A stretch of DNA of 39,985 bases from Synergistaceae bacterium. GTDB taxonomy: Bacteria > Synergistota > Synergistia > Synergistales > Synergistaceae. The notes under the pieces were generated by a model that saw only the letters and a list, made by a program, of their open reading frames with translations, was not told where the DNA came from and did not search any database. Positions 4,968 through 11,680 of this stretch are shown in pieces. A program made the position numbers and the translations under genes. How positions within the stretch are numbered: position 1 is the first letter of the stretch; each line of letters opens with the position of its first letter. Location of the stretch: contig JAISYM010000138.1 of NCBI GenBank assembly GCA_031269875.1, positions 1-39,985 of the forward strand. Direction: 5' to 3'.

Positions 4968-5215
4968 ATGATTATACAAAAAATTGTCGTTCCCTGACTA
5001 TGCTGAAATGGAAGTAAAACACGTAAATCTTGTTATTTATTATTGCTTAACGCAGCATACTAAAATTATTTTTATTAATTATCCCATCTTCTCACTCTAT
5101 TCATTCTTTGTATTATAATTTCCACGTTTGCCTATTGACAATTTTTTGTGTAAAAATTAGGATTATCGCATCGAGCAGACAGAGCACAGTTGAATAGGTT
5201 TGGGGGATAGGCTGA
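4968..5215. other. AT-rich intergenic region with paired ACAA-N4-TTGT sites
   Basis: This 248-bp stretch is strikingly AT-rich compared with its neighbours. ACAAAAAATTGTC at 4976-4988 recurs as its exact inverse complement GACAATTTTTTGT at 5137-5149. Each copy contains a dyad ACAA-N4-TTGT. The second copy overlaps the -35 of the promoter at 5135-5163. No coding frame of interest is visible. Confidence 0.6.
5135..5163 (+). promoter_or_regulatory. Sigma-70 promoter of the DauR-like regulator
   Basis: A perfect TTGACA at 5135-5140 and TAGGAT at 5158-5163 are spaced by 17 bases. The start of transcription would be near 5170, giving a leader of about 45 nt. The -35 overlaps the dyad at 5137-5149, so a bound protein would compete with RNA polymerase. 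Confidence 0.75.
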
Positions 5216-5881
5216 ATGATTTCCGCTGAGTGCAACGACATTAGTCCTAAACTTCGTCCTTTCGTTCAGATGGTGGAAGGGCTGGCAAAAATCCTTGGGA
5301 GTGACTGCGAGGTACTGCTTCACGACACCAGCTGCCCGGAACGCTCCATCGTCGCCTGCGCGAACGGTCATGTAACCGGCAGATCGCTGGGCTCACCCAT
5401 GTCGGTTTACGGACTCCAACTCATCAGCTCGGATGTGTTCCGCAAATCACGGTACGTTCACACGTACACCGCAAAAACAAACAACGGAAAGCTCATCAAG
5501 TGCGGGGTGATAGCCATTCGTGACGGCATCGGCGAGATAATAGGGCTCCTCTGCCTGCATTTTGACACCGCTAAGGCCGCGGCCGCCAGAGAACTCTTGG
5601 AAGAACTCTTTCCATCGGACTGGTCCGCCGATATGGAACCGATCAACGAATTTTTCGGCCGGGAGATAGAGGACGTATTCAATAATACATTTCAGGAGAT
5701 GAAGGGGCTATTCGACAAACCAATTTCAGAACTGTCGAAGCCGCAGAAAAAAACTGTCATAAAGAACCTCATCGAAAGCGGTTTTTTCCTTATGAAGGGG
5801 GCTGTAGAGTATATCGCGAGAGAGATGGGCAACAGCAAGTTTACCATTTACGGCTACATCAGGGAAATAGAAAGAGGCTGA
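5216..5881 (+). CDS. YheO/DauR-type PAS-HTH transcriptional regulator
   Basis: Cytoplasmic DNA-binding regulator with an N-terminal YheO-like PAS domain (about residues 10-125; the segment GSPMSVYGLQLI and the stretch KCGVIAIRDGIGEIIGLLCL are typical) and a C-terminal helix-turn-helix (about 165-220, ending in SKFTIYGYIREIERG). The best studied relative is DauR, which controls D-arginine catabolism genes in Pseudomonas. Length, 221 residues, is normal. Start ATG 5216 follows GGGGGATAGG. It stands 23 bp upstream of the iron-sulfur/flavin dehydrogenase operon on the same strand, so control of that operon by an amino acid or a derived metabolite is the likely job. The ligand is unknown. Confidence 0.88.
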   Translation: MISAECNDISPKLRPFVQMVEGLAKILGSDCEVLLHDTSCPERSIVACANGHVTGRSLGSPMSVYGLQLISSDVFRKSRYVHTYTAKTNNGKLIKCGVIAIRDGIGEIIGLLCLHFDTAKAAAARELLEELFPSDWSADMEPINEFFGREIEDVFNNTFQEMKGLFDKPISELSKPQKKTVIKNLIESGFFLMKGAVEYIAREMGNSKFTIYGYIREIERG

Positions 5882-5904
5882 CTTGGAAGGAGGAGGAATC
5901 GTCG

Positions 5905-6243
5905 ATGGATCTTATTGAGGAACACCCGGTGCTTGAATCGTCCAATTTCAGGAGGGGCGAGAAGGTCGAGTTTACATTCGACGGCGTCACTATGGAGGGG
6001 TTCGGCGGCGCTCCGATAGCGGCCGCCCTTCACGCAAACGGCGTCAGAGTCTACCGAGAGACCCCGAACATGAACCGCCCAAGAGGTTTTTTCTGCGCCA
6101 TCGGGAAGTGCAGCAGCTGTTTTATGGTTGTCGACGGGGTACCGAACGTGAGAACCTGCGTCACGCCCTTGGCGGCCGGGATGGAGGTCCGGACGCAGCA
6201 TGGCAGGGGGCGGGCCCGGATCGTTCCCGTTCCAGCAGAGTGA
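5905..6243 (+). CDS. [2Fe-2S] small subunit, HcnA-like
   Basis: Small redox protein of the Fer2_4 type, equivalent to HcnA of hydrogen cyanide synthase and to the ferredoxin part of fused alpha subunits in dye-linked proline dehydrogenases and opine or sarcosine oxidases. Four cysteines, C64, C69, C72 and C85, have the C-x4-C-x2-C-x12-C spacing of a plant-type [2Fe-2S] site. It would pass electrons within the membrane-free complex. Start ATG 5905 has GGAAGGAGGAGG upstream. The next gene begins 12 bp downstream and encodes the flavoprotein to which this domain is fused in many relatives. Size, 112 residues, is typical. Hydrogen cyanide production is not implied. Confidence 0.88.
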   Translation: MDLIEEHPVLESSNFRRGEKVEFTFDGVTMEGFGGAPIAAALHANGVRVYRETPNMNRPRGFFCAIGKCSSCFMVVDGVPNVRTCVTPLAAGMEVRTQHGRGRARIVPVPAE

Positions 6244-6255
6244 GGCGCGGGTAAG

Positions 6256-7353
6256 ATGACAGATTACTCGGCTGATATTCTGATTGTCGGAGGCGGCGCG
6301 GCAGGATTGTCCGCGGCGTCTGAGGCCGCTTCGTACGGATCGAAGGTACTGATCGCAGAGACTGACCTCCAGCTCGGCGGACAGCTCGTCAAACAGACGC
6401 ACAAATTCTTCGGAAGCAAGGATGAGTATGCCGGAACAAGGGGCTACAAAATCGCGGGCATCCTTCTGGACGAGATCAAGGAGAACGCGCGAAACGTCAA
6501 GGTTCTCACCAACACGACGATTACTGGCTACTACAGCGAGGATCAGACGTTCACCGCCATGTGCGGGGAGGAGTCCTACACGCGCATCAAGGCCAAGAAG
6601 GCGATAGTGGCCACAGGCGCGTCGGAGCGGCTAATCCCGTTCCCGAACAACGACATCCCGGGCGTTTATGGGGCCGGCGCCATTCAGACGCTGATGAACG
6701 TCTACGGCGTGACCCCAGGCAGGCGCGTGCTCATGGTGGGCGCCGGCAACATAGGCCTGATCGTCAGCTACCAGCTGATGCAGGCCGGCGTCGAGGTCGC
6801 GGCTGTCGTAGAGGCGATGCCTAAGATCGGCGGATACTGGGTCCACGCGGCAAAGATTCGCAGGCTCGGCGTCCCGATCCTGCTCCGCCACTCCATAAAG
6901 GAGGCGCTGGGTGAAAGGGTCGTAGAGGGCGCCGTGATAATGGAACTCGACGATAAGTTCGCTCCCACCGGAAAGGAACAGAACATCGATTGCGACGTAA
7001 TCTGCCTTGCGGTAGGGCTCTCTCCCACCACAGAGATACTTGCCCAGGCGGGATGCAAGATGAGATATGTGCCGGAACTCTGCGGCTCCGTCGTGGAGCG
7101 GGACCGGACGATGAGGACGTCAAACCCGGATTTTTGGTCCGCAGGCGACGCGACGGGCATAGAGGAAGCGAGCGCCGCGATGGTGGAAGGGCGCATCGCC
7201 GGACTGTGCGCGGCGGAGAGCTTGGGCTTCCCCGTAAAGACGGAAAAATTGGATGAATACTGGACCCGCCTCGATCACCTGAGGGCAGGCGAGGTCGGGG
7301 AAAAGATTCGCACCGGCATCGGCAAGGTGTCACGCGGCGAGTGGGAGGTGTGA
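6256..7353 (+). CDS. FAD/NAD(P)-binding oxidoreductase, HcnB / ProDH alpha-like
   Basis: Two-dinucleotide-fold flavoprotein. GGGAAG at residues 12-17 is the FAD-binding loop, VATGAS near 118-123 is the conserved ATG motif, and GAGNIG at 162-167 is the NAD(P)-binding loop. WSAGDATG near the C-terminus is the second FAD contact. Relatives are HcnB, the OoxA opine oxidase subunit and the alpha subunit of archaeal dye-linked L-proline dehydrogenase, which couples the substrate-oxidising beta subunit to NAD or another carrier. At 365 residues it is shorter than fused alpha subunits of about 480 because the [2Fe-2S] part is a separate gene just upstream. Start ATG 6256 follows GGCGCGGG with a short gap. 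It is followed at 5 bp by the ferredoxin gene. Confidence 0.9.
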   Translation: MTDYSADILIVGGGAAGLSAASEAASYGSKVLIAETDLQLGGQLVKQTHKFFGSKDEYAGTRGYKIAGILLDEIKENARNVKVLTNTTITGYYSEDQTFTAMCGEESYTRIKAKKAIVATGASERLIPFPNNDIPGVYGAGAIQTLMNVYGVTPGRRVLMVGAGNIGLIVSYQLMQAGVEVAAVVEAMPKIGGYWVHAAKIRRLGVPILLRHSIKEALGERVVEGAVIMELDDKFAPTGKEQNIDCDVICLAVGLSPTTEILAQAGCKMRYVPELCGSVVERDRTMRTSNPDFWSAGDATGIEEASAAMVEGRIAGLCAAESLGFPVKTEKLDEYWTRLDHLRAGEVGEKIRTGIGKVSRGEWEV

Positions 7354-7357
7354 CGCA

Positions 7358-7873
7358 ATGAGTGGAAAAGAAGAATCCCTTTTTAACAGCGGCGTGCTGA
7401 CGGACGAGCGTCCCGGAGCGATCCGACCTCCAAAGGAACTGTGGGAGTCCAAGAGGGCCGGGCTCGCGGTGGTTGAGTGTCCTCAGCGTATCCCGTGCAA
7501 CCCGTGCGCCACAAGCTGTCCCGTAGGTTCCATCCTCCCCTTCTCCGACATCAACGACACCCCACGGATCGACTACACAAAATGCACAGGCTGCGCGATT
7601 TGCGTTGCCGTATGCCCCGGGCTCGCCTGCTTCGTCGTGGATCTCACTTTCAGCGAGGACAGAGCGCTCTATAAGCTCCCCTACGAGATGCTGCCCCTGC
7701 CGTCAAAGGGCGAGACAGTCATCTGCCTGGGCAGGCAGGGAGAGGAGCTGGCGCGCGGGACGGTCGAGGCGATAATAGAACCGAAGCGCGATAAAACCTA
7801 TGTCATTCACGTGTCCGCGCCAAAGGAATTTGCGAACGACATCAGAGCGATAAAGACAGGTGACCAGAGATGA
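7358..7873 (+). CDS. Two-cluster [4Fe-4S] ferredoxin subunit (ProDH delta-like)
   Basis: Electron-transfer subunit of 171 residues. Cysteines C41, C47, C50 and C54 and then C76, C79, C82 and C86 form two cysteine groups; the second is a standard CxxCxxCxxxCP site. An extra cysteine sits at 91. The size matches the roughly 20-kDa delta subunit of the four-part Thermococcus dye-linked L-proline dehydrogenase. Start ATG 7358 follows GGGAGG within the end of the preceding gene. It overlaps the next gene by four bases (ATGA), indicating translational coupling. The C-terminal half has no cysteines and probably makes contacts with other subunits. Confidence 0.87.
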   Translation: MSGKEESLFNSGVLTDERPGAIRPPKELWESKRAGLAVVECPQRIPCNPCATSCPVGSILPFSDINDTPRIDYTKCTGCAICVAVCPGLACFVVDLTFSEDRALYKLPYEMLPLPSKGETVICLGRQGEELARGTVEAIIEPKRDKTYVIHVSAPKEFANDIRAIKTGDQR

Positions 7874-8184
7874 GCGACGTTAAAAAAGCTGATAAAGCAG
7901 ACACAGAAGTGGTCATTTGCAGGTGCGAGGAGATCACCTTGGACGAGATCAGGCTTTGGATCGACAGGGGCTGTGAGACGTTCAACGAGCTCAAGAAAGT
8001 CCTTCGCGTCGGCATGGGACCCTGTCAGGGCAGGGGCTGTCAGGAAATAATACTGCGGGAGCTGTCCCGCAGAGCGGGCATTCCGATCGATCAGGTCGAA
8101 TCAGGAACGGTCAGACCGCCCGTCAAGCCCATAAAGACGGGCTTGCTGGCATCGGAAGGAGGTGTGGAAGCATGGGAAGCTTAG
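7870..8184 (+). CDS. BFD-like [2Fe-2S] protein (ProDH gamma-like)
   Basis: A 104-residue protein with a bacterioferritin-associated-ferredoxin-type cluster site: C17 and C19 in ICRCEE, and C52 and C57 in GPCQGRGC. Such domains occur fused to, or beside, sarcosine-oxidase-like and HcnB-like flavoproteins. The size fits the 11-kDa gamma subunit of dye-linked proline dehydrogenase. Residues 75 to 104 form a proline-rich tail without known function. It overlaps the ferredoxin gene upstream by four bases and the next flavoprotein gene by 13 bases, so all are translated from one message. Its role is probably electron relay between the beta and alpha subunits. Confidence 0.88.
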   Translation: MSDVKKADKADTEVVICRCEEITLDEIRLWIDRGCETFNELKKVLRVGMGPCQGRGCQEIILRELSRRAGIPIDQVESGTVRPPVKPIKTGLLASEGGVEAWEA

Positions 8185-9329
8185 AGTGGAAAAACCGGGC
8201 CGACGTCGTAATCGTAGGCGGGGGCATCGTCGGAATATCGACCGCGTATTATCTGGCTGAGTTTGGAAGAAAGGACGTAGTCGTCCTCGAAAAGGGAACT
8301 GTTTGCAGCGGTTCCACCGGCAGATGCGGGGCCGGGATTCGCGCTCAGTGGGGAACTGAGATGAATTGCCGGCTCGGGATAGCGGCTCTCGATATCTTCG
8401 AGACGCTCGAAGACAAATTCGGAATGTCCGTGGGCCTCAACCAGGGCGGCTATCTTCTGGTCGCGTACTCAGAAAATGAGTTCGCGAACCTCAAAAAAGG
8501 GATGGCTCTGCAGAACAGCATTGGCATCGAGAGCAGGGTCGTAACGCTTGCCGAGGCCAGGGAAATATGTCCGGCGCTCGACGCTTCCGATGCCGTCGGT
8601 TTTACGTATCACGCGCGGGACGGTCACGCCGATCCATTCCTGACCACCTTCGCGTACCTGGAGGCGGCGAAGAAGCTTGGCGTCGCGTATTACAGGAATA
8701 CGGAGTGTACCGGCATCACCGTCCGGGGGGACAAGGTCACCGGGGTGGACACGTCGAGGGGGCATGTGGACGCCGATGTGGTCATAAACTGCTCCGGCGC
8801 TTACTCTCAGATAATCGCTAAATTCGCGGGCGTCGATCTCCCCAACTGGGGCGAGCGCCACGAGATAATGGTCACCGAGCCGATTGAGGACGGCGTATGC
8901 CCACCGATGCTGATGAGCTTCTCCGGCAACTACTACATTCAGCAGCGGCCTCACGGTTCCATTATCTGCGGGATGAGCCCGGCCGGGCATCCGCAGGACT
9001 TTCAGAATAGAACCACATGGCAGTTTATAACGGAGATGAGCCGCGTCTTGAACAAGCTCCTGCCTGCGACGAAGGAGATAAGGGTTGTGCGGCATTGGGC
9101 GGGGCTCTACGATATGACTCCGGACGGATCCCCGATAATAGGTGAGACGGATGTCAAGAATTTCTATCACTCCACCGGGTATTCCGGGCACGGGTTCATG
9201 CTCGCGCCCATCGCGGGAAAGGTCTTGGCTCAGCAGCTGACCCGTAATACCCCCGATATAGATTTGAGCGTACTCGATTATCGGCGCTTCGCGCGCGGTG
9301 AGCTCATAATGGAGCCGAATATTACGTAA
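8172..9329 (+). CDS. DAO-family FAD oxidoreductase (HcnC / ProDH beta-like)
   Basis: The substrate-oxidising flavoprotein of the complex. It belongs to the D-amino-acid-oxidase/glycine-sarcosine-oxidase fold (DAO). DVVIVGGGIVGIS with GGGIVG at residues 16-21 is the FAD site; GSTGRCGAGIRAQWG near 45-60 is typical of sarcosine-oxidase-beta and HcnC; the end DGSPIIGETDVKNFYHSTG plus GHGFMLAP is the family C-terminal motif. Length is 385 residues, like the 43-kDa beta subunit of proline dehydrogenase. Start ATG 8172 follows GGAAGGAGGTG. Candidate substrates are L-proline, hydroxyproline, sarcosine or a D-amino acid; the DauR-like regulator leans to an amino acid of D form, but the sequence does not decide. 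Confidence 0.92.
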   Translation: MGSLEWKNRADVVIVGGGIVGISTAYYLAEFGRKDVVVLEKGTVCSGSTGRCGAGIRAQWGTEMNCRLGIAALDIFETLEDKFGMSVGLNQGGYLLVAYSENEFANLKKGMALQNSIGIESRVVTLAEAREICPALDASDAVGFTYHARDGHADPFLTTFAYLEAAKKLGVAYYRNTECTGITVRGDKVTGVDTSRGHVDADVVINCSGAYSQIIAKFAGVDLPNWGERHEIMVTEPIEDGVCPPMLMSFSGNYYIQQRPHGSIICGMSPAGHPQDFQNRTTWQFITEMSRVLNKLLPATKEIRVVRHWAGLYDMTPDGSPIIGETDVKNFYHSTGYSGHGFMLAPIAGKVLAQQLTRNTPDIDLSVLDYRRFARGELIMEPNIT

Positions 9330-9350: not shown

Positions 9351-9404
9351 AGGGCGCGGTTGTTTTTTGTGATGTGACGCAGTATCACAAAACAGCCGCG
9401 CCCT
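9351..9404. repeat. Long hairpin after the dehydrogenase operon
   Basis: AGGGCGCGG at 9351-9359 pairs with CCGCGCCCT at 9396-9404, continued inward by TGTTTT/AAAACA and GTGAT/ATCAC with a small bulge, for about 20 paired bases. No T-run follows on either strand, so it is not a textbook terminator. It may protect the 3' end of the operon message or be a mobile palindrome. Confidence 0.65.
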
Positions 9405-9446: not shown

Positions 9447-9651
9447 ATATCTGATATGACTATCAAATTGTCTCATAATGACGAACCCGAGATGACGGAC
9501 CGGCGACTCACTCCGCGAATCGGACCGCTCATACACCTCTGTCCTGAGCTGATTCGCTCGGCCGACATCCATGCCGGCCGCCGATTCGCTGCGTTCGTTC
9601 GCCGGTCCGTCATCTCTTTCCTGAGACAATTGGATAGTCATAATATCTGAT
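9447..9651. repeat. Large interrupted inverted repeat, about 205 bp
   Basis: The outer arms, 9447-9475 and 9622-9651, share TGACTATC(A/C)AATTGTCTCA in inverse orientation. The middle arms, 9489-9506 and 9599-9616, are an 18-bp perfect inverse pair beginning GAGATGACGGACCGG. Inner arms GCGAATCGG at 9514-9522 and CCGATTCGC at 9581-9589 also match. ATATGACTAT is additionally repeated directly at 9434 and 9454. The whole folds into one long cruciform. A 64-codon frame inside it is a by-product. It lies between convergent genes. Confidence 0.8.
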
Positions 9652-11179: not shown

Positions 11180-11301
11180 TTTTTAGGAAAGACCAATTTA
11201 TTACGAGGGGCCTAAAGGGTGAAAATTTAAACCCTTTAGGCCTCAAACTTTCCAAAACGGTAAAATGCCGTTTGGGCTCATTAATCGGCCTTTCCTTTAT
11301 T
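11180..11301. repeat. Inverted pair of dispersed hairpin elements, copies B and C
   Basis: Copy B, plus strand at 11180-11245, has AGGAAAGACCAATTTATTA, a GAGGGG spacer, and then GGCCTAAAGGGT at 11209-11220 paired with ACCCTTTAGGCC at 11231-11242, a perfect 12-bp stem with a 10-base loop. Copy C, minus strand at 11255-11301, has AAGGAAAGGCCGATTAA and its own hairpin, CCAAAACGG/CCGTTTGG at 11253-11274. The two copies face each other tail to tail. They fill the 241-bp gap between the Cof and hemerythrin genes. Confidence 0.75.
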
Positions 11302-11680
11302 TGCCCTTGTAAAAGACCGCGAATTCCTTGTCGTGAATCAGTATGTGATCTTTAAGCCAGCCGATCACGTTTTTGTTTATCGCCTGTGACATTGCAAGGG
11401 TATGCCCCTCTTTCAAGAATTGTTCCCTGAGTTTGCGAAATTCGCCGACATATCCGTCATGATACTTTTTGTGAATCGCTGCCTTCGGGTATTTCGAGTC
11501 GGCGTGCATTTTCTGTTCGTCGTTGAAATGAACGATTATATACTCTCCCAAAAAATCTATAGTCTCCTTGAACCTTTCTTTATTTCCCGCATCCATCAAC
11601 GCGTCGACACGCTTGAACAGCTCCTTGTGCTGTTCGTCAATCTTTGCGATGCCAGTCTCGAGCGACTTAGACCACAACAT
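11297..11680 (-). CDS. Bacteriohemerythrin
   Basis: Oxygen-binding di-iron protein of 127 residues, a single four-helix domain. All seven expected ligands are present: H18 in IDEQH, H51 and E55 in HFNDE, H70 and H74 in HKKYH, H112 and D117 in HILIHD. In anaerobes such proteins are thought to bind and deliver or scavenge oxygen near the cell, sometimes linked to taxis. Start ATG 11680 follows GGAGGGTG. It stands alone between a hairpin at 11832-11866 and a repeat pair at 11180-11301. Its stop codon lies inside the edge of repeat copy C. Confidence 0.95.
   Translation of the reverse strand: MLWSKSLETGIAKIDEQHKELFKRVDALMDAGNKERFKETIDFLGEYIIVHFNDEQKMHADSKYPKAAIHKKYHDGYVGEFRKLREQFLKEGHTLAMSQAINKNVIGWLKDHILIHDKEFAVFYKGK

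Follow-up and report, generated by a model that had tools for sequence, protein, structure and literature searches.

What does the enzyme encoded at positions 5216-9329 of a 39,985-nucleotide contig from a Synergistaceae bacterium oxidise, and how unusual is it? The contig, referred to here as the window, is contig C90 of a 2.58-Mb draft genome (G000) that is 94% complete, and the region in question contains six close-set open reading frames (ORFs) on the + strand, all judged coding by a codon-usage gene finder. The original prediction described a DauR-controlled dehydrogenase of five subunits with a split alpha subunit. We find that the region is a real six-gene operon, consisting of a regulator gene and the genes of a five-subunit enzyme, and that the locus is a bacterial relative, so far uncharacterised, of a complex known from archaea. 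On balance we favour, by a modest degree of belief, a soluble amine dehydrogenase of the archaeal alpha-beta-gamma-delta kind, acting most likely, in an anaerobe that ferments proteins, on a proline-type imino acid (L-proline being the first choice), with NAD(P) and/or ferredoxin as electron acceptors. The part most worth following is the behaviour of the family as a modular chassis.

The first gene (5216-5881) encodes a YheO/DauR-type regulator of 221 amino acids (aa), with Pfam matches to PAS_6 (2e-32) and HTH_22 (4e-17). It is followed after 23 bp by a1 (5905-6243), encoding an HcnA-like Fer2_4 [2Fe-2S] protein of 112 aa (Pfam Fer2_4, 3e-30; NCBIfam match to the SoxA N-terminus), and after another 12 bp by a2 (6256-7353), encoding an HcnB-like FAD/NAD(P) oxidoreductase of 365 aa (Pfam Pyr_redox_2, 2e-37; SoxA/PH1363 match). 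Only 4 bp further, the gamma gene (7358-7873) specifies a ferredoxin-like subunit of 171 aa with two [4Fe-4S] sites and a C-terminal beta domain (Pfam Fer4 dicluster, 2e-6). It overlaps by 4 nt the delta gene (7870-8184), for a BFD-type [2Fe-2S] subunit of 104 aa (Pfam Fer2_BFD, 1e-8; SO_alpha_A3, 5e-7), which in turn overlaps by 13 nt the gene of the catalytic FAD subunit beta (8172-9329), a DAO-fold protein of 385 aa that we class as type A (Pfam DAO, 2e-80). The metal and dinucleotide motifs are all intact: C-x4-C-x2-C-x11-C in a1, present in 48/48 relatives; GGGAAG (FAD) and GAGNIG (NAD(P)) in a2; eight cysteines in gamma, all invariant across 30 aligned relatives; C-x-C...C-x4-C in delta; and GGGIVG and R-x-W in beta. 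ORFs, Pfam matches and motifs thus confirm the operon content first proposed and its cofactors, namely two [4Fe-4S] clusters, two [2Fe-2S] centres, two flavoproteins and one NAD(P) site. The division of alpha into HcnA-like and HcnB-like genes also stands, a1 and a2 being separate ORFs that, by family matches, correspond to the N-terminal and the central part of the archaeal/SoxA alpha subunit.

Is this arrangement peculiar to the window? A gamma profile search of named genomes yielded at least 590 related cassette loci, 80 of which were kept for inspection. All five parts were found in 64/80 of these and the window's gene order in 50/80, and because the cassette recurs so widely, and so often in the same order, it is not a chance assembly. 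Hosts among the matches listed belong to Bacillota (Thermosediminibacter litoriperuensis, Pelosinus propionicus, Desulfosporosinus HMP52, Faecalicatena faecalis, Claveliimonas bilis), Fusobacteriota (Propionigenium maris), Spirochaetota, Chloroflexota, Nitrospinota, WOR-3 and other phyla, and the cassette is frequent among anaerobes that ferment amino acids, including gut Lachnospiraceae and Synergistota. Since a1 and a2 are separate in 69/74 assessable bacterial loci, a split alpha is the bacterial norm, and neither the split nor the complex can be called unusual, as had been supposed. In an uncultured Clostridiales member (L169:3123-9917), two complete five-gene cassettes occur in tandem.

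The closest counterparts are archaeal. The dye-linked L-proline dehydrogenase of T. litoralis and T. profundus is encoded by pdhA-F-X-B, for alpha, gamma, delta and beta, and the T. litoralis cluster groups a racemase, a pyrroline-2-carboxylate reductase and L-proline dehydrogenase (PMC4364671). The window shares the subunit inventory and the alpha-gamma-delta-beta order of this Thermococcus enzyme (PDH2 type), in keeping with the kinship originally claimed, but its alpha is made by two genes instead of one, its host is bacterial and its substrate is predicted only. Among solved structures, the closest relative of the window beta is 1Y56_B, from the Pyrococcus horikoshii L-proline dehydrogenase (E 5e-79, 35% identity, TM 0.92), followed by sarcosine oxidase beta; identity to the P. 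horikoshii subunit reaches 42% in basal type A betas. The window delta aligns with residues 411-491 of the P. horikoshii alpha chain (1Y56_A), its C-terminal domain. In that alpha4beta4 enzyme (PDH1), however, the parts equivalent to a1, a2 and delta are fused in one alpha chain and there is no gamma, and its alpha has TGSKA at the NAD site where the window a2 has GAGNIG.

The Synergistota betas form two clades, both starred at 100 in the beta tree: type A, which includes the window, and type BC, which includes a second copy on contig C6 of the same genome. Sixteen positions separate the types; the residue of L-proline dehydrogenase is found in A and not in BC at 8 of them, and in BC and not in A at 2. 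The nearest solved beta, the gene order, these type A residues and the racemase, cyclodeaminase, symporter and 2-oxoacid:ferredoxin oxidoreductase genes near related operons together argue for a proline-type substrate, and we count the imino acid of the original prediction as likely. In the beta tree, the window beta falls inside a starred 38-row bacterial clade without a characterised member, with 1Y56_B outside and Thermococcus PdhB not included, so that it shows no firm grouping with one characterised enzyme. The literature searched revealed no characterised bacterial member of the five-subunit complex, and searches on DauR/YheO, PDH1/PDH2 and gene conversion in this setting gave nothing useful. 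Knowing the substrate would therefore close a gap in what is understood of proline and imino-acid metabolism in anaerobes.

These neighbouring genes are those of relatives. In many of them a 2-oxoacid:ferredoxin oxidoreductase comes straight after the operon. Across the 80 loci, we found Asp/Glu-type racemases at 18, members of the ornithine-cyclodeaminase family at 8 and proline racemases at 3. In both L057 and L058 the genes next to the type A operon include a Cys-Cys proline racemase along with an NSS (Na+) symporter, and L057 has an ornithine-cyclodeaminase-family gene there as well; a cyclodeaminase-family gene, a symporter and an aldehyde:ferredoxin oxidoreductase (AFOR) lie near the L097 locus (by cluster membership). 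Beside type BC operons stands either a proline racemase gene (e.g. L061, L062, L073, L076) or, as in the genus of the window, a symporter gene together with one for an Asp/Glu-type racemase. An AFOR gene with a 4Fe-4S protein gene is also found near the cassette in Synergistota (L058:5143-7314) and Bacillota (L167:10339-12489, L175:7114-9303). Such an enzyme could oxidise the glutamate semialdehyde made from proline, a possible next step.

Several observations weigh against a proline-type substrate. The window beta is placed outside the small group that contains the P. horikoshii enzyme. The proline racemase family is absent from the window genome, as is any orthologue of the 2-oxoacid:ferredoxin oxidoreductase, and the evidence from gene context is therefore borrowed from relatives, some of them only about 56-67% identical in beta. 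The Asp/Glu-type racemases are associated with neighbouring clades of the complex, a sign that substrates may differ elsewhere in the family. Opines or sarcosine are used by further superfamily clades whose subunits are similar.

Could the substrate instead be a D-amino acid, possibly a basic one, converted to a 2-oxoacid that a 2-oxoacid:ferredoxin oxidoreductase would then use? A DauR-like gene lies immediately 5' of a1 in 4/4 genomes of the window's genus (L040, L041, L059 and the window), hinting at a basic substrate; KorABCD-type 2-oxoacid:ferredoxin oxidoreductase (KOR) genes directly follow type A operons in many families; and racemase linkages extend across the wider family. The regulator gene, however, is restricted to few relatives beyond the genus, and the beta is distant from DauA (Foldseek 23-24% identity, ranked below L-proline dehydrogenase). 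Compared with the DauBAR D-arginine system, the regulator type fits but the beta is nearer to L-proline dehydrogenase and SoxB than to DauA. The KOR linkage, considered as proof of a 2-oxoacid product, was set aside: in several families housekeeping genes (uvrA, rlmB, nnr, tsaE, tsaB) precede those operons, so the linkage is possibly inherited synteny. We regard a D-amino-acid dehydrogenase as rather unlikely. The "DauR-controlled" label reflects the position of the gene, conserved within the genus; control itself is putative. In Thermosediminibacter (L152:3562-9902), tsaE-tsaB-like genes precede the cassette by inspection, as they do in many Synergistota, which may reflect conserved synteny or an old inter-phylum transfer. 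Two further context leads did not survive. A small 5' gene in relatives, taken for RidA, is AcpS, and the idea of an imine deaminase was dropped. AcnX, beside two operons, is a weak argument for cis-3-hydroxyproline because AcnX classes cover other functions, the two-subunit classes including mevalonate-5-phosphate dehydratase and uncharacterised bacterial types (PMC8184944).

A similar question arises for sarcosine, other N-alkyl amino acids and opines, which the enzyme might oxidise on a common chassis. The best NCBIfam match of beta is the SoxB subfamily, though far under its cut-off, and a1 and a2 have their matches in parts one and two of sarcosine oxidase alpha. The heterotetrameric sarcosine oxidase SoxBDAG shares with the window the beta fold and the Fer2_4-Pyr_redox-A3 alpha parts, but it is an oxidase with a folate-binding domain, SoxD and SoxG; Pfam detects no GcvT-like folate domain, SoxD or SoxG in 5216-9329, and the window set is a predicted dehydrogenase. 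On the opine side, a pTi locus (L182) carries a related a1/a2-delta/beta set adjoining a gene of the octopine/nopaline dehydrogenase family, and type-2 opine dehydrogenase (OpnDH) is reported to be close to archaeal L-proline dehydrogenase (PMC4575208). In the HCN synthase HcnABC, D-hydroxyproline dehydrogenase (D-HypDH) and the opine dehydrogenase OdhABC, as in the window, the small [2Fe-2S] subunit is separate from the FAD subunit. HcnABC, D-HypDH and OpnDH nevertheless have three genes, with a second [2Fe-2S] motif in the FAD subunit (e.g. a 466-aa gene in L182) and no 4Fe-4S gamma, whereas the window has five, with the BFD domain in a gene of its own and gamma present. Identity of the window beta to SoxB (29%) and to the pTi beta (27%) is also lower than to L-proline dehydrogenase. 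A substrate of this group is in our judgement distinctly improbable.

How would a proline-type dehydrogenase of this composition work? On the model of the 1Y56 complex and of sarcosine oxidase, beta would move a hydride from the substrate to its FAD, giving a cyclic or open imine. The R-x-W motif leads us to expect an FMN site where beta meets alpha; electrons would cross it and the [2Fe-2S] centres in a1 and delta to reach the FAD of a2, which could reduce NAD(P)+. The gamma subunit, with its two [4Fe-4S] clusters, may provide a second exit, to ferredoxin or another partner. On this reading a1-a2-gamma-delta would form a general electron-transfer chassis and beta its exchangeable, substrate-defining part. 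A complex with two flavoproteins, an NAD(P) site and a 2x[4Fe-4S] subunit also invites the idea of flavin-based electron bifurcation, raised in the original prediction, or of its reverse, with NADH and ferredoxin driving imine reduction. Among the family matches none shows strong homology to a known bifurcating module, and no match of the Etf, Nfn, Hdr or Hyd/NuoF type stands out; a2 is a SoxA/HcnB-type flavoprotein. Gamma gave a confident structure model (pLDDT 88) whose fold search produced no confident match among solved structures, bifurcating subunits included. Amine/imine couples lie near -120 mV, NAD+ at -320 mV and ferredoxin at about -420 mV. Coupled oxidation with NAD+ plus ferredoxin is therefore strongly uphill, bifurcation would run the wrong way round, and reduction of these acceptors would need product removal. 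Bifurcation in either direction is very hard to credit.

Does the family behave as such a modular chassis would? In the window genome, the betas of the two operons (window and C6) are 36% identical and the four other subunits 68-72%. In eight Synergistota genomes (G008, G018, G022, G029, G057, G065, G073, G082) the contrast is extreme: the a1-a2-gamma-delta tracts of the A and BC operons are 97-99.6% identical in DNA over 2.17-2.26 kb, while the betas share about 39% of amino acids (locus pairs L052/L061, L056/L067, L064/L063, L050/L074, L054/L060, L190/L191, L192/L071 and L195/L196). Since G065 and G073 hardly differ at the loci concerned, the eight genomes represent at most seven independent cases. 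The tract begins right on the a1 start codon or no more than about 25 bp from it and stops close to where delta ends; outside it the sequences are unrelated. An assembly artefact was considered and rejected: G008, G018, G065 and G073 are each a single contig, and the flanks and betas of the copies differ. Other genomes show intermediate identity, several over partial tracts (G016 93%, G010 and G044 about 90%, G032 86%, G023 79%), and in the window's genus it is low, 64-66%; the window's own two copies, at about 64%, are not homogenised. In L050 (6968-9237, G008), the type A a2 is read as two ORFs owing to a one-base gap relative to the near-identical L074 copy, a frameshift or a sequencing error.

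The G018 chassis copies are 97.0% identical to each other, compared with 84.5% (A) and 83.9% (BC) between G018 and G022 orthologues, whose betas are 86-89% identical. In the chassis tree, the A and BC copies are sisters in G018, G057, G065 and G082, while the beta tree splits by type. Because chassis identity within a genome exceeds that between orthologues of different species while the betas split by type, the pattern reads as a signature of gene conversion that would keep the chassis common to interchangeable betas. Basal families have one chassis with both betas, as BC-a1-a2-gamma-delta-A (L097), or two betas in tandem (L095), and L058 is arranged a1-a2-gamma-delta-A-BC-a1-a2-gamma-delta. 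These layouts are likely ancestral and intermediate states, and fit one shared chassis that was duplicated later, which would also account for the beta-first order of many BC operons. We think it fairly probable that one Synergistota chassis serves at least two divergent betas, perhaps for two enantiomers or related imino acids, that in genomes with two chassis recurrent conversion, limited to the chassis reading frames, keeps the copies interchangeable as the betas diverge, and that the window lineage left this regime and gained DauR-type control. Chassis homogenisation shows clearly, in nature, how an enzyme can evolve by modules, the electron-transfer part being kept identical and the catalytic part swapped. 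It extends, and makes directly testable, the "subunit-exchange" idea derived from Bradyrhizobium opine dehydrogenase, in which beta is reportedly exchanged on a common alpha/gamma (PMC4575208).

Other elements of the window flank the operon. A sigma-70-like promoter candidate (TTGACA-N17-TAGGAT, 5135-5163, + strand) lies 5' of the regulator gene, matching the consensus at 10/12 positions in a scan limited to consensus, and just 3' of beta a strong hairpin with an inverted repeat (9351-9404, + strand; -40.4 kcal/mol, z -5.6) is a candidate terminator. Right after the operon, at 9455-9642, there is a palindromic MITE-like repeat of about 190 bp, of which the window genome has about 40 copies at 89-100% identity, many at contig ends. 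Upstream, 352-2904 encodes a flagellin of great length (up to 850 aa) with normal N and C domains and a large centre, and the ORFs after it resemble, by inspection, PseB and a sugar cytidylyltransferase. A short ORF at 11297-11680 (- strand) likewise resembles bacteriohaemerythrin.

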